Shown here: positions 1 to 30,193 of the stretch, in pieces
Numbering within the stretch: position 1 is the first letter of the stretch
How the letters are laid out: each line of letters opens with the position of its first letter
Origin: a bacterium
Lineage (GTDB): Bacteria; SAR324; XYD2-FULL-50-16
Length of the DNA stretch: 30,193 nt
Direction of reading: 5' to 3'
NCBI GenBank assembly: GCA_024275165.1
Contig: JAJRZQ010000007.1
Span: 1 to 30,193, forward strand
The notes under the pieces: model-generated
Database searches by the model: none
What the model saw: the letters and a program-made list of their open reading frames with translations, nothing else
What the model was told of the DNA's origin: nothing
Made by a program: the position numbers and the translations under genes

Positions 1-609
1 CCCGTTCGCCGCGCAAATAGGGTTATAAACATAGGCCCCGACCATAAAACGCTTGGCATCGGTGACCTGAACCACCGCCTGAGCCGCGGCCGCGGCTAGG
101 CTGGTGACATCGTCTCCGGCACTGAGCTTTTTTAAAAATTTTCCGCTTACCGCCCATTGCAGGGGCCCTTTTTTATCGTTTAAGGAAAGTTTGGCTTCAT
201 TGGCCACCGCGCCGGTTACCCAATGTACCGCATGGCCCCGGCGATAAACCATGGAAAAACTCGGCTTGGTCATGGTCTGGCCGTATTGGGCACTGACCCC
301 GGAATTGAGGGTTTCTTTCCCCATTAGGGAAATGAGCAGTGGAGCCCCTACCGGAGCGGAACCGGGACTATTGACCCGGATGAGGTAAGCGAAGGAAAAT
401 TCCCCCGCGCTTAAGCCATCCTGAAAGCGATAGATGACCCCTCGGCTGTTTTGCATTTCTGGGGAATCGGTATAGCCCGGGTTTTGGCTCGCCTTGAGCG
501 CTCCGACTAAGGGAACACAGTCTACGCTACTGGGAGGGGCTAAAACCCCGGGGGTGGTTTCCAATTTAAGGAAAACCAATTGGTCTGTTTTTCGTGCGAT
601 GCTCATCAT
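1..609 (-). CDS. Putative phage tail tube protein (partial)
   Basis: An open reading frame runs leftward from ATGATG at 604-609 and is still open at the window edge (203 codons seen). The N-terminus (MSIARKTDQLVFLKLETTPG) and the following alternation of short strands resemble tail-tube proteins of siphovirus-like transposable phages (Phage_tube_2 type), which often start with a short strand followed by an ETTPG-like turn. Position supports this: it follows gp36, gpG and gp37-type genes, where Mu-like phages place tail genes. No sheath-like gene precedes it, which hints at a non-contractile tail. The family call is by resemblance and order only; either Met could be the start. Confidence 0.6.
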   Translation of the reverse strand, partial: MMSIARKTDQLVFLKLETTPGVLAPPSSVDCVPLVGALKASQNPGYTDSPEMQNSRGVIYRFQDGLSAGEFSFAYLIRVNSPGSAPVGAPLLISLMGKETLNSGVSAQYGQTMTKPSFSMVYRRGHAVHWVTGAVANEAKLSLNDKKGPLQWAVSGKFLKKLSAGDDVTSLAAAAAQAVVQVTDAKRFMVGAYVYNPICAANG

Positions 610-613
610 TTTT

Positions 614-1024
614 TTATTCCGTTAAGGTGAACTGGGCCGCATAGACCCATAGGTTTTGCATGCGGGTAATAAAACCGTCTTCTTGGGGCAGCAGGGGAGT
701 GCAGCCCGGGGGCTGAAAACCCGCCAGGGCAGCGATCACTTGTTCCAATAAGGCCAGGGCCCCTTCACTTCCATTGAGGCCGCTGACGGCCACAAAAACC
801 TCGAAACGATATTCTCGTTGCAAAGGGAAATCGGCTTGTAGGGGGATTGCCCCCAACTCGATAGGATTGCTGTGTTTAGCCCCCCCGTAGCGCACAAATA
901 CCGAGCCCTTGCCCCCGGTCAGCAGTTGTTCTTGAGGCCGATCAGGAAAAGGCTCCACCCTGTAGCCCCCACCGAGTTGCCCCTTGAGCTGTGCCACTAG
1001 AGCGGATTGAATGCTTTGGATCAT
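614..1024 (-). CDS. Mu gp37-like protein (DUF1834)
   Basis: A 136-residue protein beginning MIQSIQSALVAQL. Its length, the central strand pattern (FVRYGG...REYRFEVFVAV) and the C-terminal aromatic strand (NLWVYAAQFTLTE) match the DUF1834 family of Mu-like prophages, a virion-assembly protein of the head-tail junction region whose exact role is not settled. The start overlaps the stop of the gpG-type gene by ATGA, so the two are probably translationally coupled. It lies in the usual gp36-gpG-gp37 neighbourhood. Confidence 0.8.
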   Translation of the reverse strand: MIQSIQSALVAQLKGQLGGGYRVEPFPDRPQEQLLTGGKGSVFVRYGGAKHSNPIELGAIPLQADFPLQREYRFEVFVAVSGLNGSEGALALLEQVIAALAGFQPPGCTPLLPQEDGFITRMQNLWVYAAQFTLTE

Positions 1025-1437
1025 TGAACCTCCCTTGCTTGATCCTTAAATCGAGCGACCTCGCTTTGATAAGCGGCCTCTTCTTGATCCCCCCAACCCA
1101 AAAAGGCGCGTTGGGGCAGCTCTGATTTACCAAAAGGCCCCCCTTGGTTGTGAATCAATCCGTAATCGAGGTCACTGCCGAGTCGCAACCCACTTGAACT
1201 CTCTTGCCAAAAGAGGGAATGAAAAAGCGCTCCGCTGAGGTACAGGGTCTTGCCTCCTTGGGCCAGTACCCGCTGAGAAGGCTTCCAAGGCTTGCCCCAG
1301 GGATCTTGTTCTTGCTCAAAATGGCTTTGGGCAACCCGCAAAAGCCTCTCCCCCAAGCGTGGGAGAAACTGCTCGCGATAACCTGGAAGCCCCCTTAAAG
1401 AAGGATGCAGTAAAACCTCTAAACGAACCCCTCTCAT
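1021..1437 (-). CDS. Phage virion morphogenesis protein (Mu gpG-like)
   Basis: A 138-residue protein with the hallmarks of the Mu gpG / P2 gpS virion morphogenesis family. It has a Gln/Asp-rich FEQEQDPWGKPWKPS segment near residues 40-54, then LYLSGALFHSLFW, a YGLIHNQGG motif and a PQRAFLGWGD motif near the C-terminus. Members act in head completion or tail attachment in the cytoplasm of the infected cell. The ATG overlaps the stop of the upstream gp36-like gene by four bases (ATGA) and its own stop overlaps the next start the same way, so it sits inside a tightly coupled late operon. Confidence 0.88.
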   Translation of the reverse strand: MRGVRLEVLLHPSLRGLPGYREQFLPRLGERLLRVAQSHFEQEQDPWGKPWKPSQRVLAQGGKTLYLSGALFHSLFWQESSSGLRLGSDLDYGLIHNQGGPFGKSELPQRAFLGWGDQEEAAYQSEVARFKDQAREVQ

Positions 1438-1862
1438 GAATCAAACCCCTCCAACCCCGGATAGTTACTGAGCGGAGGAAGGCCGGCCTTGGCCTTGGAA
1501 GGGGAAAACAAACCAACCAGAGCCAAACCGGGAAGCTGCTCCCTCCCCTTAGATACGGCTTCGAGATAACGGGTCAGACGGCTTGCTTCTTCTGCCCAAG
1601 TTCGACTCAAGGAGGTCTGGCGGCGCAGATGCAACTCAATAAGGGCGAACTTAGCGGAAATCTGGGTTAGAATCGCCGGTACCGGATTGATCGGTAGGGG
1701 GGCAACCTGAGCTAAGTAGGCGTCGATTCGTTGGTCTCCCCTTAAAATAGCGGCATCAACCCGTGCCGTATCAATGCTGCCGACCCCTTGATCATCGGTC
1801 AGTTGCAGCAAATCGGCATCGCTGCTCAATTGCCGCAAATCCGCTAAACTAGAATAGGCCAT
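1434..1862 (-). CDS. Mu gp36-like protein (DUF1320)
   Basis: A 142-residue protein starting MAYSSLADLRQL. DUF1320 (Mu gp36) members share this opening, a helical segment in which a column of residues is indexed by Asp/Arg (ARVDAAILRGDQRIDAYL), then PLPINPVPAILTQISAKFALIEL. The family is a connector- or head-completion-type virion component. The ATG sits three bases beyond the TGA of the capsid gene, consistent with reinitiation. The C-terminal 30 residues (after GREQLPGLALV) are probably flexible. Confidence 0.85.
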   Translation of the reverse strand: MAYSSLADLRQLSSDADLLQLTDDQGVGSIDTARVDAAILRGDQRIDAYLAQVAPLPINPVPAILTQISAKFALIELHLRRQTSLSRTWAEEASRLTRYLEAVSKGREQLPGLALVGLFSPSKAKAGLPPLSNYPGLEGFDS

Positions 1863-1865
1863 GAC

Positions 1866-2858
1866 TCAAACAACCTGAGCGTATACCACGCATTCGGGGC
1901 GAAAGAGTACCGGTAAGGGCCTGGCCTCTACCTTAATCCAGCGACCAGATGGGTCTTCTTGATTCCAGGACTTGGAAAAAAAGAAATCCCCCGGCTGGCC
2001 TAAACCCACCCCGCCCTCGGCGTCGAAGTCGATTACGGGGGCGCAGAGTTCCGCCGCATGATCACCGCTTAGGCCCACCAAAATAAAGTGGGTGGGGGGA
2101 ATGAGGTCTTGGCGCACCCCGTTGGTATCGAGATAACTCCCTAGATACTCCACCAATTCGACCCCCACCAAGGTCGCCATCCGGCCATCAACCGCCAGCT
2201 CTTTACCGATGGTATATTTAAGCAACTCCAAGGCAGAGGGGTTCGCGATCAAAGCGTCCATGGCTTGACTGCCCACAAAGGCGACCCAGCTACTCACTTG
2301 GCCCACGGCTTGGCTGATCTGCTTTTTCCAAGAGCGGAGATCTTGAATCGGGTTGCTTAAGGGATCGCTCCACAAACTTGTGCCGGTCAAGACAGGTTTT
2401 TGGCTCGCCGCGAAATTAAAATCGACCAGCAGCGTGCCGGAATCATCAATGATCTGGCCGGATAAGGCCTTAGCCGCCATGAATTCACGGGTTAAATCAA
2501 TCTTGCGTTTCATCTCGGCTTGTTCACCGCCGATGCGTTCTTTGAGTAGAGTGTTCTCCCCCTCCAAACCAAAGGCCCGCATGGCATTTAAATCCCCTGC
2601 GGCGATGAGTCTTTTTTCCGAAAAACGGGGCGCGGAACAGGTGATGGTTTTGCGGCCCTGGTTATCGCTCATTTGAGCGGGCTCATGAACCTGGATATTG
2701 CGTAAAATACGCTCGGACTGGCTCGCGATATCCCAGGCAAAGCGATCCGTCAGTTGGCGGCTTTTTTTGCCGAAAACCTTGTCTAAGATTAAAGTGGGCA
2801 CCGGCTTGAGCAAATTGACCGCGGCTGCCATAGCGCGGGTTTGAAAGAGTTGATCCAT
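1866..2858 (-). CDS. Major capsid protein, lambda gpE-like (Phage_cap_E)
   Basis: A 330-residue HK97-fold capsid protein. The N-terminal part (residues 1-60, with LKPVPTLILDKVFG), the ERLIAAGDLNAMRAFG-like stretch near 80-97 and the long helix EAEMKRKIDLTREFMAAKAL-type region near 110-135 match the Phage_cap_E family of phage lambda rather than Mu gpT. A strong ribosome-binding site (AGGAG, seven bases upstream of ATG) fixes the start. It follows a lambda-D-like decoration gene and precedes gp36, so a lambda-type shell appears to be built with Mu-type packaging and connector proteins. Confidence 0.88.
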   Translation of the reverse strand: MDQLFQTRAMAAAVNLLKPVPTLILDKVFGKKSRQLTDRFAWDIASQSERILRNIQVHEPAQMSDNQGRKTITCSAPRFSEKRLIAAGDLNAMRAFGLEGENTLLKERIGGEQAEMKRKIDLTREFMAAKALSGQIIDDSGTLLVDFNFAASQKPVLTGTSLWSDPLSNPIQDLRSWKKQISQAVGQVSSWVAFVGSQAMDALIANPSALELLKYTIGKELAVDGRMATLVGVELVEYLGSYLDTNGVRQDLIPPTHFILVGLSGDHAAELCAPVIDFDAEGGVGLGQPGDFFFSKSWNQEDPSGRWIKVEARPLPVLFRPECVVYAQVV

Positions 2859-2882
2859 AAAAGCTCCTGAAAATGAATTGGA

Positions 2883-3230
2883 TTAGGCGAAAAAGAAACG
2901 AGCGGTACTGAGATCGGCTCTGCCGGGGGCGTCTAGACCGATTAGATTCGCCTCCCTCATCACTCCGATAAGGCAAACCACCGCTTGAACATCGGCTAAA
3001 GAGCCATCGGCGTCATCCCACAAAATAGCCTTGGCCACCTCGGTGCCGTCAAGGGCCGCGTTGTTGTAAACGCTGTATTTCCCCGTTGCGGTAATCACCC
3101 CTAAAACCTGGCCCCTCAAATAAGGCCCCCCCGTGAGAGTGACTTTTTGCAAGACCGGGCCGTAGTTGTTTTGCGCAATCAGGGTAGTTTTGTTTTGCGT
3201 AGTCTCGACCACGCCTAAAAGACCTGCCAT
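2883..3230 (-). CDS. Head decoration protein, lambda gpD-like (HDPD)
   Basis: A 115-residue protein. The segment TLTGGPYLRGQVLGVITATG, followed by KYSVYNNAALDGTEVAKAIL and the closing INTEREST-type VVCLIGVMREANLIGL, is the pattern of the lambda gpD / SHP head-stabilising family: a trimer that binds the expanded capsid from outside. The start is fixed by AGGAGG four bases before the ATG. It lies directly upstream of the capsid gene in transcription order, as gpD does before gpE in lambda. Confidence 0.85.
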   Translation of the reverse strand: MAGLLGVVETTQNKTTLIAQNNYGPVLQKVTLTGGPYLRGQVLGVITATGKYSVYNNAALDGTEVAKAILWDDADGSLADVQAVVCLIGVMREANLIGLDAPGRADLSTARFFFA

Positions 3231-3247
3231 ATTCCTCCTGCGGTTGG

Positions 3248-4192
3248 CTATTTAGAAAAAATACGCTCCTCGCGTACCGTGGTAGGGCAACCTGCCGCCT
3301 GAGCGATTTCTTGCCCTAGTTGATCCTCTTGAAACGAAGCTGAGCCCTGCCCAACCCCTAAAACCCGGAAATGCCCCTGTAGGGGAAGCCCAGCCAAGAG
3401 CCCTTTGAGGCGGCTTGCAAGAGAGGGAGAGCCCCCTTCTGCGAAGTTTTGGTCCGCCTCTTCTTCCAACTCCACCAACAGAGCAGGGATCACCTGCGCT
3501 TGGGCCGGGGTTAAACGGCCTTGAGCCACCAGCCCTTGGCTGAAATCCCGTGCCTGGGTGAAACGAGTTTCCTTTTGCAATTTTACGAGTTGGGTTTGGA
3601 GTTGGAGCTCCTTCTCGCTGGGAATCGACTCGCTCTTTACTCCTTCTGGCTGATTGCCCTGGGACAACCAGGCTTGATATTCCGCGTCATCCATCGCGAT
3701 CATCCGCTGTGCCTTGACCTTAAATATTCGGCCATCAGCGAGCATCAGGTAATCCTTCATAGGTTGAACCCCCTCATCAGGTTGATCAGGCTCATTGAAT
3801 TCAATCTCCAAAGCGGCCTGGTCGCCTTGAAAACTCACATCGACCAACCCCTTTACCGCAGGGGGAACCGCCCCCAAAAAACCGAGATGTCGGAGAGAAA
3901 AATCGGCAAAAAGGCTGATACTGCGCTTTTTAAAACGCCCCGCTTGCACCATCCGCACAAATTCAGGAGCCAATTCGCCCAATTGAGCTAAGAGTTTGCC
4001 TCCTTGCAGTTTAAGACCCTTGACCCAACCATAAGCGGGGGCGTTGTCCAGCGGATGCCCGATGACCACCGGGGCCTCATGCTGGGCCGGGTCGTAGCTC
4101 TCTTTGATCTTTGCAAGGTCAGCCATAGACCAATCCCGCTCGTTGCCTGAACTGTCGGTGTGCTTGCCGGTTTGAAATATTTCGATCCACAT
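3248..4192 (-). CDS. Putative prohead protease/scaffold protein (Mu gpI position)
   Basis: A 314-residue protein. The first 95 residues, with EIFQTGKHTDSSG, SYDPAQHEAPVVIGHP, PAYGWVKGLKLQGGKLLAQL and AGRFKKRSISLF, match a family common in Mu-like prophages and annotated as peptidase or I protein. The His and Ser in VVIGHP and KKRSIS are candidate catalytic residues of a herpes-type assembly protease, but I cannot prove this. Residues 160-250 are Gln/Glu/Leu-rich and probably coiled coil, as expected for a scaffold domain. AGGAG lies eight bases before the ATG. It sits between portal and decoration genes, the normal slot for protease/scaffold. Confidence 0.72.
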   Translation of the reverse strand: MWIEIFQTGKHTDSSGNERDWSMADLAKIKESYDPAQHEAPVVIGHPLDNAPAYGWVKGLKLQGGKLLAQLGELAPEFVRMVQAGRFKKRSISLFADFSLRHLGFLGAVPPAVKGLVDVSFQGDQAALEIEFNEPDQPDEGVQPMKDYLMLADGRIFKVKAQRMIAMDDAEYQAWLSQGNQPEGVKSESIPSEKELQLQTQLVKLQKETRFTQARDFSQGLVAQGRLTPAQAQVIPALLVELEEEADQNFAEGGSPSLASRLKGLLAGLPLQGHFRVLGVGQGSASFQEDQLGQEIAQAAGCPTTVREERIFSK

Positions 4193-4228
4193 TTTGTTTG
4201 CTCCTAAACTCTAAGTTACTGATAAAAT

Positions 4229-5410
4229 TTATTTGGAAATCAGGGAAAAATCCGCCTCCGACAAACCGTATTTTTTGGTCAAATAGGCGGGGTTGAAGCG
4301 CACCCCCATGCGAGTTAGGATTTCATCCCGCTCTGCCCAATCCCTGCTGGGATTTTCTTCTTCATACCAAGTAAATTCGGGCGGCGCGGCGGAGGGATCA
4401 TTTAAATCCCGGTACAGCCTGGACAAACGGTAAAACCAATCCTTGACCAAACCTTGATCGGCCTGGCGCACCTCATCCAAAATCCCCTTGTGGGTCTCGG
4501 TCGCCGCTCGACTCCCTGCGCCCCCTAAACTGCTGGTTAGGGTTTGGGTTAAGATGGCGCGGGTCATTTCTTCGGTTAGCCTGGCAATCAACTTTTCGTG
4601 AATCTCCGCGCCCTTGGACCGATCAGAAGAATGCACCTCGAGCTTGGAACCCTCGGGTAAAATGACGACGCCGCCACTCCGCGCCTGGGACAGGGCGGAA
4701 AGCAGATCGTCTTGATCTTCTAAGGAAAGCCCTAAGGGATAGGTTCCCGCTAAAAGCGGAAGGTTGAAATCCTCGGCGACCCGCACCCAAGCGCGGAAAC
4801 CGCCTCGACGAAAATTAACGGGCCAAAAGCAACGAGAAAGCGCCCTTTGCCCATAGGGGTTTTCATAACTTGGGGCGTGACGAAGAGGTAATACCTTGCC
4901 TGGGGGAATGGCTTCCCCCTCTGGATTGCTACCCAAAGCGGGGAAAAAACGAAGCTCCCCCTGGGTGTTAAAGCGAAACCAATGGCCCGGCAGGCAACGG
5001 GCCTCTTTTAAATGGAGTTGACCGGCCTTTTCCCCCCACAGCAATTCCACCGGAACCAAGCCGTACAGGGGGGCGTCTAAGAGATTATTGATCAAGGCAC
5101 GCAGGTCTAAACAAGATAAATCCCGCTCCAAAGCCAAGGCAAGCCTCTTAGAAGCTGGACTGGGGGAATTTGCCCCCCTTTTGCCGGGACGAAGGTGAAA
5201 CTCGCGGTTTAAGGTGGCGAGCTTGCGTTGCTCAATGAGGCCGAACAGAACGGGGTCGGCACTGAGGTCTCTCAATTTGGCTTCACCCCGATCCGCTAAA
5301 CGATTTAAAACCGGGTCGGGATCGGGTAGGAGCCAATGAAAGCCTCCCTCGGCCCGCGCCCGATTATAGATTTCTTGAGTGAGGGTGGATTTTTGCTTAA
5401 AGAGTTTCAT
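4229..5410 (-). CDS. Portal protein, Mu gp29-like (DUF935)
   Basis: A 393-residue DUF935 portal, the dodecameric ring through which DNA is packaged. Family features include the N-terminal RALAG-type block with DPVLFGLIEQRKLATLNREF, ALINNLLDAPLYGLVPVELLW, RHAPSYENPYGQRALSRCFWP and AEDFNLPLLAGTYP, then a TSSLGGAGSRAATETH motif near residue 310. I chose the ATG at 5410 rather than one 15 bases upstream because it follows GAGAGG by six bases and forms a TAATG overlap with the terminase stop. At 393 residues it is shorter than Mu gp29 (about 500). Confidence 0.88.
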   Translation of the reverse strand: MKLFKQKSTLTQEIYNRARAEGGFHWLLPDPDPVLNRLADRGEAKLRDLSADPVLFGLIEQRKLATLNREFHLRPGKRGANSPSPASKRLALALERDLSCLDLRALINNLLDAPLYGLVPVELLWGEKAGQLHLKEARCLPGHWFRFNTQGELRFFPALGSNPEGEAIPPGKVLPLRHAPSYENPYGQRALSRCFWPVNFRRGGFRAWVRVAEDFNLPLLAGTYPLGLSLEDQDDLLSALSQARSGGVVILPEGSKLEVHSSDRSKGAEIHEKLIARLTEEMTRAILTQTLTSSLGGAGSRAATETHKGILDEVRQADQGLVKDWFYRLSRLYRDLNDPSAAPPEFTWYEEENPSRDWAERDEILTRMGVRFNPAYLTKKYGLSEADFSLISK

Positions 5411-7044
5411 TAATAACCTCTCCAACGATCAGGTGTATTGCCTAAGGCAGGCTGGTTTTGATTCATAGCGCGGGCGGCCCCGCCCCCTTGAAGCAGGGCA
5501 AAGGCAAGGGTAAAGGCCATTTCTAGAGCGTCGGGGCCATCGTCATGAGAGGCTTTAGGGTAATGCCAAAGCTGGTTTAAGAGCTCTTGGTGACCGGCAT
5601 GAAACCGAATCACCCCAGCCTTGATCTGCGGTTGCAGGCTCTCGATACGCAAACCCTTTTCTGCCCTTGGTTTAACCCCTAAAGCCGGAACCGGAACCCC
5701 GGCGAGCGCCGCGCGACGAATCAGCTCATCTTTAAAAAAAGCCTGAAACTGCACGGTTTCTACCACCCAGCGAAGGCAGCGGTATTGTTGCTGCAACTCA
5801 ATCACCTCTTCGATAATCCGGTCGGGAGGGAGGCGGTTGATCTTGGCTGCGACCACAAAAACCTGCCCTTGACCTTTCGAGACCGCTAAAATAATCAGGG
5901 CGGAAGGGTCGGCCTGAGCATTGGCCCCCATTGAAGGGTCCACGGCGCCGACATAAAAAATATCCTCCGGAAGGGTTTCCCAATAACAAAAAAGAGCAGG
6001 GTCGAAAACCCGTTCCGCCTCATCCATGGGTTCATTTTGATATTCACTGGCAAAGCTCTCTGCCTGTTCCACCCTTTTGCCCATCAACAATAAAAGAGGT
6101 TGCACCTGGGGCCACAACACCTTGGCCCCTTCTTCCAAAGCGGCTTGATGTCGCTTATAAAACCCCAAGGCCGATGACCGCCCACTGGAACGGTAGAGAA
6201 GGGCGAATTGATCCCAAAGATCCATGCGGTTGGGCCAAACTCGAATCGCCTGCCAGCGCTCCCCATGAAAGGCACCACCAGAAAGCAACCTGGAAAGTAA
6301 GGAATCGTAATGTAAAACCGTACCCACAACAATAAGGTCATGGCTTTCATCGGGAGGGCCTAAGGGAACCACGGACTTCCAAAACCAAGCATAGGCCTTG
6401 TCGCGCATGGATAAAGCGCGGACCGCCTCATCATTTTCCAAGTCATCGCACAAAATCAAATCAGGCCGTTGTTGCCCATGGGTAGCCCCCCGAATTCGCT
6501 TGCCCGTGCCGTAAACCTTTACCTTGGCCCCATCTTGGGTTAAAATTTGGGTTTGGCTCCATACCCCCCCTAGACCACAAGCAGCGGGGAAATCTTGTTT
6601 CAGCCTGGGGTTTTCTTCCAATTCCACCTTGATTGCCGCTAATGTCTCCGCTGCTTGCTCTAAACTATCTGAAATCACCACCACAAATCGCTTCAAGCGA
6701 TAAACCAAGGAATAGAGAAGCAAGGCCTTAATTAAACTGGTTTTACCATTCCCCCTGGGAGCCGCCAAGGCGAGGCGAAGACCCCTCTGAGCCTTACCCC
6801 CGCCCCGAGCAAAAGGCTCGAGGAGGGAAAAAAACTGGCAATGCAGGTCGGAAAACCGACTCTCTGGAAAATAATGAGGAAGGTATTGGCTTAAAAAGTT
6901 TCCCAAATTGCCTTTTGCCTCTTCTTTGCGAGTGGCGATGTCTTTTGAATCCAATGGAGTCACCGATGTTTCGATTTCTCTTAACAACTGTTCCCGCAAA
7001 GATTGAATCCTTGCTTTTAAATTCGAGGAATTTAGTTTTGCCAT
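5410..7044 (-). CDS. Terminase large subunit (Mu gp28-type / COG5362)
   Basis: A 544-residue packaging motor. The ATPase domain has Walker A APRGNGKTS (about 95-103), a VVVISDSLEQA segment, an RIRGATHGQQRPD motif and Walker B LILCDDLE (about 196-203). The C-terminal nuclease has AVDPSMGANAQADPSALIIL, with the first catalytic Asp, and DGPDALEMAF, with the last Asp. It cuts and pumps phage DNA through the portal encoded next to it. The start overlaps the small-subunit-like gene by 13 bases, and the stop overlaps the portal start (TAATG). Confidence 0.9.
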   Translation of the reverse strand: MAKLNSSNLKARIQSLREQLLREIETSVTPLDSKDIATRKEEAKGNLGNFLSQYLPHYFPESRFSDLHCQFFSLLEPFARGGGKAQRGLRLALAAPRGNGKTSLIKALLLYSLVYRLKRFVVVISDSLEQAAETLAAIKVELEENPRLKQDFPAACGLGGVWSQTQILTQDGAKVKVYGTGKRIRGATHGQQRPDLILCDDLENDEAVRALSMRDKAYAWFWKSVVPLGPPDESHDLIVVGTVLHYDSLLSRLLSGGAFHGERWQAIRVWPNRMDLWDQFALLYRSSGRSSALGFYKRHQAALEEGAKVLWPQVQPLLLLMGKRVEQAESFASEYQNEPMDEAERVFDPALFCYWETLPEDIFYVGAVDPSMGANAQADPSALIILAVSKGQGQVFVVAAKINRLPPDRIIEEVIELQQQYRCLRWVVETVQFQAFFKDELIRRAALAGVPVPALGVKPRAEKGLRIESLQPQIKAGVIRFHAGHQELLNQLWHYPKASHDDGPDALEMAFTLAFALLQGGGAARAMNQNQPALGNTPDRWRGY

Positions 7045-7550
7045 GCTTTTTTGCGTTTAATGACTTCGGTTTGAATCTCTTCTAAACACTCGACTAAGCT
7101 TTGCGCGGCCGCGGGGCTTTTTTTGGTTAAGGCTTGAGCGGTGATTTCTAATACCTCGCTCACCACAACCTCAATGGACAATTCCGGCGCAAAGCGCCTC
7201 GCCGCGCCCACGGCTTTAGCCAAACTATGGGCCAAGGAAGCGATGAGCTTCACCTTGACCACCGGAGGATGATCCATTTCCCCTTGAATCTCCAACAGAC
7301 TTTGCCGCACCGCTTCGGTCAAATCCATCATGGCTTTGGCCATCTCCACCCCTTGGGGTAGAGTTTCTGCTTGCAGGCAGTCTTTTGCTTGTTTTTCAGA
7401 CTCAGCTTGCATGACCCAAGATTTTTGATAACGGCGAATGGTGGAGGGGGTAACCTTGAGCTTTGCCGCTGTTTCCAAAACAGATAAACCCTGCTCCAAC
7501 AAGAGTCGTTTGGCTTTTTTATTGCGCAGAACCGAAGCCTTTTGTCTCAC
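7032..7550 (-). CDS. Terminase small subunit-like protein (DUF1804-type)
   Basis: A 172-residue protein with an N-terminal helix-turn-helix (LLEQGLSVLETAAKLKVTPS, about 17-36, followed by TIRRYQKSW) and an otherwise helical, Ala/Glu/Val-rich body ending in a basic tail (VIKRKKAWQN). This architecture and its place directly before the large terminase fit the Mu-type small terminase family that recognises the packaging site. The Mu numbering is uncertain. Both ends overlap neighbouring genes (4 bases upstream, 13 downstream), so it belongs to the same transcript. Confidence 0.7.
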   Translation of the reverse strand: MRQKASVLRNKKAKRLLLEQGLSVLETAAKLKVTPSTIRRYQKSWVMQAESEKQAKDCLQAETLPQGVEMAKAMMDLTEAVRQSLLEIQGEMDHPPVVKVKLIASLAHSLAKAVGAARRFAPELSIEVVVSEVLEITAQALTKKSPAAAQSLVECLEEIQTEVIKRKKAWQN

Positions 7551-7900
7551 GAGCCTCCCCGAGCGCGAACCAAGTGGGTCAAAAGTTCGGCGGTGCGATG
7601 GGGCACCTCCATCACCTGCCTTTGTACCTCTTCAAGTCGGTCATATAAGCGACCGACCTTGCCTTCGATTTCATAATCCATTTGTTCCAACTTCCGGTTA
7701 TGTTCATCCAAGCGGCGACCGTGCTCCCCCACCCGGCCCCTTAAAGCCCCGTAAGTGACCGCTACGGCGATGAGGCTGCTCATGATGGTAATCAAAATCG
7801 CCCACCAGCCCGACTCGGTTTGAGTTGGCCCGGCCCAGGCCGAACTAGGTGCCAAAAGGGCTAGGACAAGCAATAAACGGGGTTTAAGATGGGGGTTCAT
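7547..7900 (-). CDS. Small phage membrane protein with coiled coil (DUF2730/spanin-like)
   Basis: A 117-residue protein. Residues 1-23 form a signal-like hydrophobic stretch ending SSAWAG, and residues 32-53 (WWAILITIMSSLIAVAVTYG) are a transmembrane helix. Residues 60-105 are charged and heptad-like (EHGRRLDEHNRKLEQMDYEI and on), typical of a coiled coil. Mu gp25-type DUF2730 proteins and inner-membrane spanins both look like this, and I cannot separate them. It overlaps the gene before it by 17 bases and the terminase small-subunit gene by four. Confidence 0.6.
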   Translation of the reverse strand: MNPHLKPRLLLVLALLAPSSAWAGPTQTESGWWAILITIMSSLIAVAVTYGALRGRVGEHGRRLDEHNRKLEQMDYEIEGKVGRLYDRLEEVQRQVMEVPHRTAELLTHLVRARGGS

Positions 7901-8174
7901 AACGCTCCAATAAAGAACTGACTAATTCCTGACCCATCTCTTGGGCCATCTGCTGGATGGTTGGGTTTTCAATCGGAAGTTGATCGAATAGAGGAATCAA
8001 TTCTTCTATCGCTTTGGCCCGCTCTTGGCGTAAACTCGCTTGAATCAAGCGCCGCAGGTTCAACAGAACCCCAGCAAGAGCCGGAAAAATAAGGGCTAAG
8101 GTGACAAGACCCGCGTCAAGAAAAAGACCGACCCAAAGCGGGTCTTGAAGGAAAAAATGAAGCAAAGACTGCAT
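7884..8174 (-). CDS. Small phage membrane protein, possible holin
   Basis: A 96-residue protein starting MQSLLHFFLQDPLWVGLF. I chose the ATG at 8174 because GGAG lies five bases upstream; an in-frame ATG at 8216 (adding 14 residues) has no clear ribosome-binding site. A hydrophobic region at about residues 10-42 could form one long or two short membrane helices. The rest is charged and helical (ASLRQERAKAIEELIPLFDQ). A holin is plausible from size, topology and the neighbouring spanin-like and lysozyme genes, but no family motif proves it. Confidence 0.5.
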   Translation of the reverse strand: MQSLLHFFLQDPLWVGLFLDAGLVTLALIFPALAGVLLNLRRLIQASLRQERAKAIEELIPLFDQLPIENPTIQQMAQEMGQELVSSLLERYEPPS

Positions 8175-8307
8175 GAATTCTCCAAATTTGAAAGAGGAAA
8201 GTTCCTCTTGATTCATTATGGATTCATCATAACAAAGTTCGATAAAAAATCGCAGACCCACTAGATTGGGTTGTAAAAAAGGATGAGGCAGAAAAAACCG
8301 ATTCTTT

Positions 8308-8505
8308 TTAAGCGAAACGCAAGCGATCGAGCAGTTGAAGTTTTTCAATCGCCCAATCAATGATTTGTTGTGTGCCGAGGAGTTGCTCTGTATCCATGCG
8401 ACCGGAACCCACTTGGGCCAGGCTGCGACTCACGAGCCCAAGAGCTAAAAGAGTTTCTTCTAAAAGTTTTTCTTCATCTCGTTTTGAGGGATAAGCTGTT
8501 TCCAT
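8308..8505 (-). CDS. Small hypothetical phage protein
   Basis: A 65-residue, mainly helical acidic protein (METAYPSKRDEEKLLEETLL...). The ATG at 8505 is preceded by GGAAGG three bases upstream, which is why I prefer it to a longer frame starting at 8607. It has no recognisable motif, signal peptide or membrane segment. It lies between a ribbon-helix-helix gene and the possible holin gene, and the palindrome at 8590-8605 lies upstream of it. Function unknown. Confidence 0.5.
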   Translation of the reverse strand: METAYPSKRDEEKLLEETLLALGLVSRSLAQVGSGRMDTEQLLGTQQIIDWAIEKLQLLDRLRFA

Positions 8506-8571
8506 GATCCTTCCTTTTGGTTTATTATTATCTTTTATGTCACTGGGATCATTATCTGTAAATATTTTTTT

Positions 8572-8688
8572 TGGCGGACACCTCAAGTTGTTAAGCTGAC
8601 TTAACATTATGTATTATATTGTTTTATTAAGGTTTTAAAATAAATTATAGCGTTATATAGGTAATGAAGCTTGCTAAGCTGGCGGACA
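8572..8688. promoter_or_regulatory. Candidate operator region: palindrome plus repeated 9-mer
   Basis: The AT-rich gap between two small phage genes holds a perfect inverted repeat GTTAAG-CTGA-CTTAAC at 8590-8605 and two exact direct copies of TGGCGGACA at 8572-8580 and 8680-8688. These are typical sizes for dimeric repressor sites, and the gene immediately upstream (8697-8867) encodes a predicted ribbon-helix-helix protein. Function as an operator is inference; no convincing -10/-35 pair was assigned. Confidence 0.35.
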
Positions 8689-8696
8689 GAATTTGT

Positions 8697-8867
8697 TTAT
8701 TCGTCTATTTTTTTTCCTAAAAGTTGGAGGTCAAAGGCCGTGAAAAGCAGTCGTAAAGCGGCATGACCCAAGTCGCTGCGGTTCCACTGAATATGAGTTA
8801 AGATTTCTCGAATTTTTTCTTCTTCCGCCTTCGTAGTGCGAAAATCCAGTCGATGATCCCTTCCCAT
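8697..8867 (-). CDS. Small ribbon-helix-helix (Arc/CopG-like) protein
   Basis: A 56-residue ORF with GAGG six bases before its ATG. The sequence MGRDHRLDFRTTKAEEEKIR reads as a short basic N-terminus, one strand (RLDFRTT) and the first helix; the remainder supplies a second helix beginning after an Asn-Arg-Ser-Asp turn. This strand-helix-helix plan and size match Arc/MetJ/CopG repressors, which bind DNA as dimers through the strand. A palindrome and a repeated 9-mer lie just downstream (8572-8688). The fold assignment is from pattern alone. Confidence 0.55.
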   Translation of the reverse strand: MGRDHRLDFRTTKAEEEKIREILTHIQWNRSDLGHAALRLLFTAFDLQLLGKKIDE

Positions 8868-9090
8868 CTTGCCTCTGCTATCTGAATGGTTTTTTTAAAA
8901 TAATTCGATTTACTGTCAACCTTAGTTGCGGGAGATACTGACAGCCCCCTAAACAACAATAACCTGAATAGGGTCGAATTTTAAAAACCAAAAAGCTAGG
9001 GCTGGACAACGCGAAGGGTCATAAATTGGGTTGTTTTTGTCCTTTTTCAATCTAAACCTGCTGCCAGATTGACCTAAAGAAAAAGGAAGC
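8868..9090. other. Intergenic region of the prophage, no gene seen
   Basis: About 220 bases between two small phage genes with no ORF of note. It is moderately AT-rich and lies downstream (in transcription) of the Mor-type activator gene, where Mu-like phages carry the middle promoter. I could not assign a clear Mor site or -10 hexamer. Confidence 0.3.
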
Positions 9091-9288
9091 TTAGGGATTG
9101 GGCAACAAAATCCAACCCTGCTGGTCCACCATCGCTTGGGCTGTTTTCCGATCAGGAGCCCGGTAGACCTTCCCCCTTTTACTGTAGACTTGCCAATAAA
9201 GCCCCTGCGCCCCTTGAACTAAAACCCGAACTTGGCAACCCTGGGGACAATTTTGCAACTGGGCCGCTGTGACTTTGATTTTTTTCAT
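9091..9288 (-). CDS. Small hypothetical phage protein
   Basis: A 65-residue basic protein starting MKKIKVTAAQLQN with AAGGAAAA upstream of the ATG. It contains two Cys (NCPQGCQV) and alternating short strands (VRVLVQGAQGLYWQVYSKRG), followed by a helix (DRKTAQAMVDQQ) and WILLPNP. No family is recognised. It lies immediately downstream of MITE copy B. Confidence 0.5.
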   Translation of the reverse strand: MKKIKVTAAQLQNCPQGCQVRVLVQGAQGLYWQVYSKRGKVYRAPDRKTAQAMVDQQGWILLPNP

Positions 9289-9306
9289 TCTTTTTCCTTT
9301 AAACTT

Positions 9307-9521
9307 AAGAAACCTCTGTAAAACTCCTTGCCTACCGCTTGTTCAAGCGGTAGTCTCATGCCCTTTGAGCTGATTATAGCCCTTGGGGCGCGTCAAGTTT
9401 TTCAACCTTTTCGGTTGGGAATGAAATCCACAATCCCAACGCGAATCAATAAGTACCACTTTTTGATTTGGCAAGGCATCCCTGCCTTGCTGGGAAACTC
9501 CGCGTTTTTCAGAGTTTCCTT
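9307..9521 (-). repeat. MITE-like element, copy B (full length)
   Basis: A 215-bp element, nearly 90% identical by eye to copy A at 12978-13191. Read on the minus strand it starts AAGGAAACTCTGAAAAACGC and ends in an imperfect inverted copy (its complement reads AAGAAACCTCTGTAAAACTC). Inside are several stem-loops: GAAACTC/GAGTTTC, GCAAGGC/GCCTTGC, CAACC/GGTTG and the perfect CTACCGCTTG-AA-CAAGCGGTAG. It has no coding capacity. TTAA flanks both sides, a possible target duplication. Insertion is at the 3' end of the Mor gene, whose last three codons and stop lie in the element. Confidence 0.8.
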
Positions 9522-9868
9522 AAGGGAAAACCCTGGAGCTTGACTAAGCGTTGCACCGTGTTGATGTGAAGTGAAAGCTCTTGCGCAATCTGGCGCTGAC
9601 TCCACCCCCGCTGTTGGAGTTTTTTGACCTTCTCTCGCAAGGCAAGGGTTTGGAACCGCCGCCCCTTGGGCAAAACCAATTGTTCCCCCCCGAAATGGCG
9701 ACAAAATACCCCGGTAAGCTGTGGACCCAAAAGTTGCCGAAGCCAATGATCGGCCTGAGGCTCCTTTTTAGGAATCCAAACCGTTTGGCCCCCTTTGGCT
9801 TGCAAGAGCTTTTTGGTCGCCTCCTCACCAAGGGCGGCCAACAGTAAATCTAATTGAATTCCAGGCAT
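9509..9868 (-). CDS. Mor-family transcriptional activator
   Basis: A 119-residue member of the Mor/C family of Mu-like phages, which activates middle or late promoters with host RNA polymerase. The N-terminal dimerisation part has AAKGGQTVWIPKK-type sequence (LLQAKGGQTVWIPKKEPQ), then LLGPQLTGVFCRHFGGEQLV and LPKG. The C-terminus carries a helix-turn-helix (RGWSQRQIAQELSLHINTVQ). I use the ATG at 9868, where the family homology begins, rather than 10024. The last residues (RKL) and the TGA lie inside MITE copy B, so the native C-terminus has probably been replaced. It overlaps the lysozyme gene by 19 bases. Confidence 0.85.
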   Translation of the reverse strand: MPGIQLDLLLAALGEEATKKLLQAKGGQTVWIPKKEPQADHWLRQLLGPQLTGVFCRHFGGEQLVLPKGRRFQTLALREKVKKLQQRGWSQRQIAQELSLHINTVQRLVKLQGFPLRKL

Positions 9869-10542
9869 GGATTGACCTTGGAAGAGAGTCGTAAAGCCAA
9901 TTCTTGGGCTAATTTTGGATTTTGTCTCGCCCAGGGGGTATCGAGTAATTCCTTGGCAGCGGCAAAAAAATCTTGCCATTGCAGGGCGGCTAAAAATTCT
10001 TCCAACCCCTTTAACCCAGTCCAACCGGTTTGCCCTAAAATTTCGGCTAAAACCCCCTTGGCAAAAGCAGGTAGCTCTTTGCCCCAGAGAAGTTTTGCTT
10101 CCACTTGAGCTAAAAGGCGCACCTTGTCAGCCGCCTCTTGGGCACGAGGACCCACTTGCCGCGCCCATTTGGAATCGAGCAACTCCTTAGCCGCCTCTTC
10201 CCATTGCTGCGCTTTGAGCGCGCTGAGAGCTTTGCGAAAGGTTAATAGGCCGTGAATCCCTAAATTAAAAGCGAGATCAACCAAGACCTCGCCCACCAAG
10301 CGAGGCAAACCCCGCCACCAGGGAAGAAAACGCTCGAGTTCGCCGACACTTTGCGCTAAATCATTTTCCAACAGGCTTTGCGCCTCAAAGAGGCTGATTC
10401 CTCTTGCTTCTAAATTACGCCCAAAGCCGATGGTTAATTTTCCCGCGGGACAGGTATAGGCTTTGAGTCGTACGCCCTCGTGGCGCATGACAGTTTGGCG
10501 GACACGCTCTAGAGGGAAGGGACAAGGGGTAGGTGGGTTCAT
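9850..10542 (-). CDS. Phage lysozyme (GH24 muramidase) with duplicated C-terminal segment
   Basis: A 230-residue endolysin that cleaves peptidoglycan glycan strands at lysis. The catalytic pattern is E22-(8)-C31-(5)-T37 in RHEGVRLKAYTCPAGKLTIG, the Cys variant of the E/D/T triad. LAFNLG and LLTFRKAL follow as in other GH24 enzymes. Residues about 105-143 (AAKELLDSKWARQVGPRAQE) recur at about 183-220 (AAAKELLDTPWARQNPKLAQ), an internal duplication that lengthens the enzyme beyond the usual 150-170. The ATG at 10542 has AGGAG five bases upstream; another ATG directly precedes it. No signal-anchor is visible, so a holin is expected. Confidence 0.87.
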   Translation of the reverse strand: MNPPTPCPFPLERVRQTVMRHEGVRLKAYTCPAGKLTIGFGRNLEARGISLFEAQSLLENDLAQSVGELERFLPWWRGLPRLVGEVLVDLAFNLGIHGLLTFRKALSALKAQQWEEAAKELLDSKWARQVGPRAQEAADKVRLLAQVEAKLLWGKELPAFAKGVLAEILGQTGWTGLKGLEEFLAALQWQDFFAAAKELLDTPWARQNPKLAQELALRLSSKVNPCLEFN

Positions 10543-10550
10543 CATTGCTC

Positions 10551-11174
10551 CTATAAGGCGGCGAGGTCTAACGGCAGAGCCTGCCATTTGCCCTCAACCG
10601 AGTGGACCCGCTGGTATAGGCGGATATATTTTTTGGTTTGCTCGATAATGATGGAATCGTGGATCGCCTCCATGGCTTTTTCCCATTGGCTGTCTTGAAT
10701 GGAAAGCCTTTTTAAACCTAAAACGCGGGGAATGGAGACCTTTCCTTCTTGGTTGACCCGAAAGGCGTCTTTGATCACGGTGACCAAATTAGGATCTGAC
10801 CCGTAAGACCAGCGCTCAATACATTGGTCGATGAGGCCCTTGGCAATCTGGAGCCGTTCATCAAAAGCAATGAGGTGAGCGACTTTGATTTCCAGTCGAA
10901 ACTGGCCGGAAAAATCTTGTAGGGTGAGGCTCTCGGATTTGCGCGGCTTGGCACCGTAGTTCTCTTGCAAGAGATTTAGGTAAGCCTCGACCTCTTCATA
11001 AATCCATTGTTTTAAGCCCTTTAACGCTTCTTGGGCTTGATTCCAACGAGAAACGATCTCCCCTAAAAGCTTATCCTTGAGCTCATCTTCACCGCGGACT
11101 TGAGACTTAGGAATGAGCCGACCCGTGGCATCTTCCCAAAATACAACCCCGTTGATTTGTGCTTCCCTTGCCAT
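10551..11174 (-). CDS. DUF3164 family early phage protein
   Basis: A 207-residue protein matching DUF3164, a family almost confined to Mu-like phages and found in their early region. Family features are the opening VVFWEDATGRLIPKSQV, the central FDERLQIAKGLIDQCIERW and the C-terminal WEKAMEAIHDSI followed by a YIRLYQR motif. Its role is unknown. It is the first leftward gene after the repressor/early intergenic region; in Mu-like genomes ner, A and B would come first, and none is present here. Confidence 0.85.
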   Translation of the reverse strand: MAREAQINGVVFWEDATGRLIPKSQVRGEDELKDKLLGEIVSRWNQAQEALKGLKQWIYEEVEAYLNLLQENYGAKPRKSESLTLQDFSGQFRLEIKVAHLIAFDERLQIAKGLIDQCIERWSYGSDPNLVTVIKDAFRVNQEGKVSIPRVLGLKRLSIQDSQWEKAMEAIHDSIIIEQTKKYIRLYQRVHSVEGKWQALPLDLAAL

Positions 11175-11231
11175 GCAACCCCCTTGATTTAAACTACCCT
11201 GGCTGGTTTAGAGCCTTTTTGTTTTTGCTCT

Positions 11232-11416: not shown

Positions 11417-12259
11417 ATGCAAAATCAAAACGCAATCTGCCTGACAGGGGAAGAGATGGCCACTCTACTCGGAACCTCACTGTCTTATATCCATAAAATC
11501 TGGAAGTTACAGGAATGGCCAAGTTTGAAAAGCCATAGTGGTCAAGCGGGAAGGCCCATCAGTCTCGCCCCCTTAAGCCAGCTACCGGATCGCATACAAA
11601 TTGCTTGGGTTGAAAAATCAAAAATTTCAAAAAAAACAGCCCAAATTATACTGGAATGGCCTTTACGCCAGAAATACTATGAGGAACGGAAAAAAAAGTG
11701 GGATGGAAACTCTTATGGAATCTGCCCTTTTGCTAGAGAATTATTAGTTCAACACTTTCCTGAATTTTCCAACTTGAACGCAAAAGAACCGGATTTTTTT
11801 CAACCCATTGCCCCGCAAAAAAGCAAAAAAGAACCCTTTCAAGAAGAATATACCCTCATCCCCCTGCTGAAACTACAAGCCGCCGCAGGAGCCGGGGTGG
11901 AAAACTTTGATCCAGAGGAAGCCCCGAAACATTTGGCCTTTCGTAAAGCTTGGCTACACCGAAATGTACAGGCAAACCCCGAAGGACTGGTCTTGGTCTA
12001 TGCCTATGGAGACAGTATGGAGCCCACCTTAATGGATCAGGATGTTTTGTTGATTGATCGCACTCAAAAAGATCCAAAAAACGGGAAAATCTTTGTTATT
12101 GAAGTGGAGGGACGGCTTTTAGTCAAACGATTAGAACTGTTGGTGGACGGGCAGGTGATGCTGCGCTCGGACAACCCCCTTTATACTCCGCAGAAGCTCC
12201 CCACCGATGAAGGGGTGCAGATTGTGGGGATGGTCGTTTGGCGAGGGGGGCGGGTTTAA
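11417..12259 (+). CDS. Phage repressor: Mu-type HTH plus S24 LexA-like peptidase
   Basis: A 280-residue lysogeny repressor. Residues 1-65 (LTGEEMATLLGTSLSYIHKI, then a WP turn and an RPISLAPLSQLP stretch) resemble the Mu repressor/transposase-type winged helix DNA-binding domain. Residues 148-280 form an S24 domain: a possible Ala-Gly cleavage site in QAAAGAG (154-160), catalytic Ser200 in YGDSMEPTL and Lys237 in LLVKRLE. Such repressors are inactivated by RecA-stimulated self-cleavage, so the prophage is probably induced by DNA damage. It is transcribed away from the early genes, facing three repeated sites upstream. Confidence 0.88.
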   Translation: MQNQNAICLTGEEMATLLGTSLSYIHKIWKLQEWPSLKSHSGQAGRPISLAPLSQLPDRIQIAWVEKSKISKKTAQIILEWPLRQKYYEERKKKWDGNSYGICPFARELLVQHFPEFSNLNAKEPDFFQPIAPQKSKKEPFQEEYTLIPLLKLQAAAGAGVENFDPEEAPKHLAFRKAWLHRNVQANPEGLVLVYAYGDSMEPTLMDQDVLLIDRTQKDPKNGKIFVIEVEGRLLVKRLELLVDGQVMLRSDNPLYTPQKLPTDEGVQIVGMVVWRGGRV

Positions 12260-29508: not shown

Positions 29509-29585
29509 CTGGATATAGCTCAGACTGGTAGAGCGCTTGCTTCGGGAGCAAGAGGCCGCAGGTTCAAATCCTGTTATCCAGACCA
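29509..29585 (+). tRNA. tRNA-Pro (CGG)
   Basis: A 77-base cloverleaf with encoded CCA. Acceptor CTGGATA/TATCCAG with C1:G72 as in bacterial tRNA-Pro, D stem GCTC/GAGC, anticodon stem CTTGC/GCAAG with loop TTCGGGA (anticodon CGG, reads CCG), T arm GCAGG-TTCAAAT-CCTGT, discriminator A73. Confidence 0.97.
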
Positions 29586-29597
29586 ATCAACGCAATA

Positions 29598-29723
29598 AAG
29601 GAAACTCTGAAAAACGCGGAGTTTCCCCGCAAGGCAGGGATAGCTTGCCAAATCAAAAAGCGCGACTTATTGATTCGCGTTGGGATTGTGGATTTCATTC
29701 CCAGCCGAAAAGACCGAAAAACT
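29598..29723 (+). repeat. MITE-like element, copy C (right part missing)
   Basis: A 126-bp copy of the same element as at 9307-9521 and 12978-13191. It starts AAGGAAACTCTGAAAAACGC 12 bases after the tRNA and matches through GCCGAAAAGACCGAAAAACT. The remaining 90 bases, including the CTACCGCTTG palindrome and the right terminus, are absent. The sequence switches at 29724 to a caspase-like coding sequence. Confidence 0.8.
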
Positions 29724-30193
29724 ATCCCGAGCGGTCAATCAAGTCCTTCGCCAAAGTTATGGGTTTAAAACTGAACTGATACTGGACGCAAAACGCGATC
29801 AGATCAGCAAAGCCATGAATCGCTATCGCAAACTGCTGAAACCGGAGGATTCTTTTTTGTTATACTATGCCGGTCACGGGACCTTTGACAAAAAGGTGAA
29901 CAAGGCCTATTGGCTCCCCTTAGACGCGGCTTTAGACGATGATACCAACTGGCTGATTACCGACAGCATCACCGCGAAAATTCAAAGGTTGCCTGCCCGT
30001 CATGTATTGATTGTCTCCGACTCCTGCTATTCAGGAACCCTAAGCCGTGGAGCAAACTTCAAACTTCAAACTTCAAACTTCAAACTTCAAACTTCAAACT
30101 TCAAACTTCAAACTTCAAACTTCAAACTTCAAACTTCAAACTTCAAACTTCAAACTTCAAACTTCAAACTTCAAACTTCAAACTTCAAACTTC
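29722..30193 (+). CDS. Caspase-like (peptidase C14) gene, 5' truncated and running off the window
   Basis: The frame reads LSRAVNQVLRQSYGFKTELI after a MITE junction, with no start codon or signal. It continues with LLYYAGHGTFDKKVNKAYWL (His at 29875-29877) and HVLIVSDSCYSGTLSRG (Cys at 30025-30027). These are the catalytic His and Cys blocks of the caspase/metacaspase fold. The N-terminal strand before the first helix (normally ALVIGNNxY...) is missing. The first in-frame ATG is at 29815, inside the domain. After SRGA it enters a 7-bp repeat translated as NFKLQTS. Likely a pseudogene or fused remnant; the dyad is intact. Confidence 0.72.
30054..30193 (+). repeat. Heptanucleotide tandem repeat, at least 20 copies
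   Basis: AAACTTC is repeated 20 times without a mismatch, running to the window edge. Seven is not divisible by three, so the repeat cycles through all three frames and reads as the 7-residue repeat NFKLQTS in every plus-strand frame, with no stop. The minus strand contains TGA in every frame. Copy-number change would shift the frame of whatever follows. Confidence 0.97.

Follow-up and report, generated by a model that had tools for sequence, protein, structure and literature searches.

Does a long heptanucleotide repeat within a bacterial caspase gene act as a genetic switch, or does it lie in a gene that is being lost? This question is raised by the end of the window, the whole stretch of DNA analysed here (30,193 nucleotides), which is the entire contig C42 of a 2.69-Mb genome assembled in 47 contigs. 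A first-pass annotation of this DNA had proposed that slippage of the repeat would switch a downstream domain on and off, as at a contingency locus. Our analysis of this genome and of related sequences indicates instead that the locus is probably an expanded heptamer SSR in a loop of a decaying, 5'-truncated metacaspase-like gene. The features on which this rests are collected in Table 1. At the other end of the window (positions 1-11200) are Mu-like prophage genes predicted to encode a major capsid protein E, a Mu-type portal, a DUF1804 protein, and a phage lysozyme, together with an S24-type repressor at 11417-12256.

Table 1. Features at and around the heptamer array. Positions are those of the window unless another contig is named.
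Feature	Position	Strand	Basis or remark
MITE-like element, another copy of ~220 bp	9305-9524	-	
tRNA-Pro (CGG)	29509-29585	+	ARAGORN; Rfam RF00005; directly upstream of the truncated element
Truncated MITE-like repeat copy, about 125 of ~220 bp, 3' part missing	29599-29723	+	Alignment with 7 copies
N-terminal part of the 5'-truncated caspase domain	29724-30052	+	PF00656 profile positions 27-135 of 233
(CAAACTT)n array	30053-30193	+	TRF, 20.1 copies, 100% match; runs to the contig end
C-terminal caspase half	Contig C12, L038 17265-17564	-	Continues the gene past the array

A perfect heptamer array at a contig end

The array is 141 bp long and perfect over its 20.1 units, which bears out the repeat of at least 20 copies first described, and its last base is also the last base of contig C42. 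Translation confirmed that every plus frame of the array is free of stops and that each encodes the same cycle of NFKLQTS heptads. The minus strand is closed by a stop (TGA) once per cycle. Once one plus frame is open the others are open as well because 7 is not divisible by 3. Openness in all forward frames therefore comes with any 7-mer that lacks a stop, as 69% of heptamers do on a given strand.

In this genome the heptamer was found at two places only, the ends of contigs C42 and C12, and the last 141 bp of C12 are an identical array. We compared both ends of the 47 contigs, three short ones of which appear to read as N, and found that ten other pairs of contig ends overlap by exactly 141 bp. 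The assembler k-mer was therefore 141. Thus, the 141 bp seen here is the k of the assembler and not the true length of the array, and the visible length is an assembler limit. In an array with a period of 7, a recurring 141-mer closes a cycle in the assembly graph. The phase of the flanking sequence sets the array length at 7n+3, so that a break implies an n of at least 21. Judged from the assembly graph, the true length is probably 150 bp or more.

Caspase-coding sequence on both sides of the array

The ORF upstream of the array matches the Pfam caspase profile PF00656 (E 6e-13) and keeps both catalytic motifs, the His in YYAGHG and the Cys in DSCYSG. The first-pass annotation had placed the DSCYSG block directly before the array; the block is there, three bases away from the position given for it, at 30019-30036. 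Beyond the array, C12 encodes one open frame of 100 codons that continues to the end of the caspase. It reads AKSQQEGYTQQLEQRKSRTLLASGG...FIFYRR followed by a stop, and the outward reading from the array starts AKSQQEGYTQQLEQRKSRTLLASGGNEPVADSSRNSGHSVFAWGF. The two other frames meet stops after about 12 and 26 codons. An immediate stop in all three frames, which had been named as an argument against a switch, is thus not what follows the repeat. The distinct effector domain that had been expected past the array did not appear either, and we rejected it, since the downstream frame encodes the second half of the same caspase.

We searched relatives with a query in which the array was omitted and the halves were fused. 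Single, uninterrupted genes of relatives cover both halves, the best with 44% identity over query residues 3-207, and the joined halves match PF00656 positions 28-224, where the domain of a relative matches positions 3-223. The C-terminal half alone has no Pfam match; it aligns with the homologs from relatives. In this alignment the array sits in a variable loop that follows the Cys block and precedes the SRTxLxSGG strand, that is, between the catalytic-Cys block and what is predicted to be a p10-like half. Few parts of the aligned homologs vary as much in length as this linker. Because the joined halves match single genes of relatives and PF00656 positions 28-224 with the array in a loop, contigs C42 and C12 are almost certainly the two sides of one array, an adjacency that we infer rather than read. 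Synteny of cyclophilin and tRNA-Pro genes is uninformative for placing C12, as no tRNA was found beside the cyclophilin genes of relatives.

Both caspase halves are free of stop codons. The part that remains has 36 of 41 conserved columns, on par with intact homologs. Near the second half (L038:12719-13645 on contig C12) we also observed genes for a DUF4384 protein and an Lnb_N-domain protein.

The 5' end of the gene

The caspase lacks about 25 N-terminal residues, including the first core strand. Aligned homologs carry a GNNNY...NDA-type segment at this place, and we did not find the missing segment elsewhere in the genome. At 29723 the caspase adjoins a copy of a dispersed element of ~220 bp that is bounded by terminal inverted repeats of ~20 bp (TTAAGGAAaCTCTGAAAAAC) and occurs about 40 times in the genome. 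From this organization the element looks like a MITE; it has no Rfam match within the window. Identity between the copy beside the caspase and seven other copies ends at 29723, and the other copies extend ~100 bp further, to a terminus that repeats their first ~20 bases in inverted orientation. Thus, a broken repeat is joined to a broken gene, for which a deletion is the best explanation. The nearest in-frame start, a TTG at 29680, lies inside the element with no ribosome-binding site before it, and no plus-strand promoter-like site was seen. This 5' truncation argues against a working switch. Because both halves are free of stops and the conserved columns are largely kept, either the gene lost its 5' end recently or it is still under some selection.

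The junctions of the array could also be products of the assembly, with C42 and C12 not being neighbors or with a chimeric 5' junction. In favor of such an artefact are the position of the array at a contig end, its visible length equal to k (141), and the copy of a repeat family at the 5' junction. However, a 141-base k-mer of pure array needs real reads of such sequence, the array ends number only two and encode complementary halves of one domain, and k exceeds the length of the repeat copy at the 5' junction. These points make false junctions very improbable. The join at 29723 is possibly chimeric, in which case the gene might be whole.

The truncated copy at the array is the sole caspase match in this 2.7-Mb genome. 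Genomes of the family have 2-9 caspase matches at sizes of 6.7-7.8 Mb and 0-1 near 3 Mb. This scarcity fits gene loss in a smaller genome, as a correlation only.

Occurrence of the heptamer in other genomes

Among 84,980 named genomes, we found 91 stretches with five perfect units of the heptamer, and these are spread over many phyla. The arrays that were measured (n = 82) are 35-163 bp long, and an array of at least 150 bp would rank among the longest of this heptamer. An open frame of at least 50 codons is present on both sides in 16 of the 82, several of these cases being evidently spurious. A clear in-gene case, with five units in frame, is found in Desulfococcaceae bacterium HSG8 (L221), and by eye the gene that carries it resembles one for glutamine-fructose-6-phosphate aminotransferase. 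Flavobacterium sp. MAG17 (L218) has long, degenerate variants of the heptamer (SNFKLQT, PNSKLQT) ahead of a coding region. Three units were present in one of 57 other genomes searched, as a 25-bp stretch outside any long ORF. A 25-bp stretch in a relative was also the only other heptamer array in ~410 kb covering the contig ends, C12, the window, and the relatives' loci. We considered whether the array is a common feature of the caspases of relatives and rejected this, as the aligned homologs lack it.

At the protein level, the NFKLQTS heptads encoded at 30053-30193 match PADLOC model PDLC02522 (BREX PglX) at positions 1038-1084 with 21 bits, compared with 0-13 bits for scrambled heptads. A similar repeat may be present in some PglX proteins.

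A possible frame switch in a probably decaying gene

Several features of the locus are those of a contingency locus. The unit of 7 bp, which is not a multiple of 3, lies between two halves of an ORF, and the full product would be made in one frame only, with early stops in the other two. Thus, the toggling of frames in the proposed switch held up (one frame open for 100 codons, the others stopping at about 12 and 26). The intact gene that it would act on did not: a contingency locus has an intact, expressed gene, whereas in this assembly the 5' end and first strand are missing. Because the gene under its control seems to be truncated, we do not class the locus as a contingency locus, although expression would make it behave as one.

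It is unlikely that the gene is a phase-variable caspase at a selected contingency locus, where one in three copy numbers gives a continuous caspase with a repeat-encoded linker. The array is long and perfect with one frame leading into the rest of the domain and two into early stops, the gene retains both catalytic blocks (His and Cys) as well as 36 of 41 conserved columns, and neuO provides a documented case of a coding heptamer switch (PMC13001214). Against this stand the loss of the first ~25 domain residues and of any start region, the absence of an array in this linker from all aligned caspase homologs of relatives, and the mostly intergenic position of the heptamer in other genomes. In an intact and variable form, the locus would switch a caspase-like protease stochastically, and the switch would lie within the catalytic domain rather than at the start of the gene. 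A bolder form of this idea, in which a slipping heptamer linker joins or separates the caspase halves and one repeat state in three turns on a protease of possible cell-death or defence function, is highly doubtful. If true, the slipping interdomain linker would vary in length, with a lysine in every heptad.

The array might also be a length-variable linker that does not switch anything, in a short functional protein that tolerates both array and truncation. This would be in keeping with the high length variability of the linker among aligned homologs and with frames that are open on both sides, but steps of 7 bases break the frame two times in three and the fold lacks its first strand, so we regard it as very unlikely.

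We favor an array prone to slippage in a decaying gene. Slippage would have expanded a heptanucleotide repeat in a bacterial metacaspase-like domain, within the loop that links its two halves, and a deletion from inside the MITE-like element into the gene probably removed the start and first strand. What remains would be a decaying remnant at which the array grew or persists under little constraint. If translated, only arrays (length 7n+3) with n = 2 mod 3 would join both caspase halves, and the array would mechanically be a frame switch on a probably inactive product. The locus also gives reason for caution, since the assembler determined how much of a striking repeat was visible at a contig end, and the adjoining gene lacks its beginning.

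Comparison with known systems

The upstream and downstream halves together resemble a bacterial type I metacaspase or orthocaspase (Peptidase_C14, PF00656; PMC6426788); they match PF00656, and their His block, Cys block, and halves follow the usual order. The locus differs from these proteins in that the first core strand is missing (profile positions 1-26) and the halves are split by a repeat.

Bacterial SSRs are enriched in heptameric repeats, and the families that have been studied are mostly non-coding (PMC4692102). The heptameric SSRs of Xanthomonas and Nostoc (PMC4692102) and the repeats of Haemophilus hmwA, where the heptamer is in the promoter (PMC8262952), resemble the array described here in being perfect tandem heptamers; such arrays have up to 26 units. 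They are mostly intergenic or in promoters, whereas this array lies inside coding sequence.

The closest parallel is neuO of E. coli K1, on prophage CUS-3, which contains a coding AAGACTC array and is fully translated when the repeat number is divisible by three (PMC13001214). Both are coding heptamers of about 20 or more units with all forward frames open, and in both the frame depends on the number of units. In neuO the repeats are at the 5' end of an intact gene and their variation has been measured (PMC13001214), whereas the array described here is within a domain of a 5'-truncated gene, with copy-number variation as a prediction. Thus, the frame-switch mechanism is already known from neuO, and the unusual feature of this locus is the position of the array between the halves of a protease domain.
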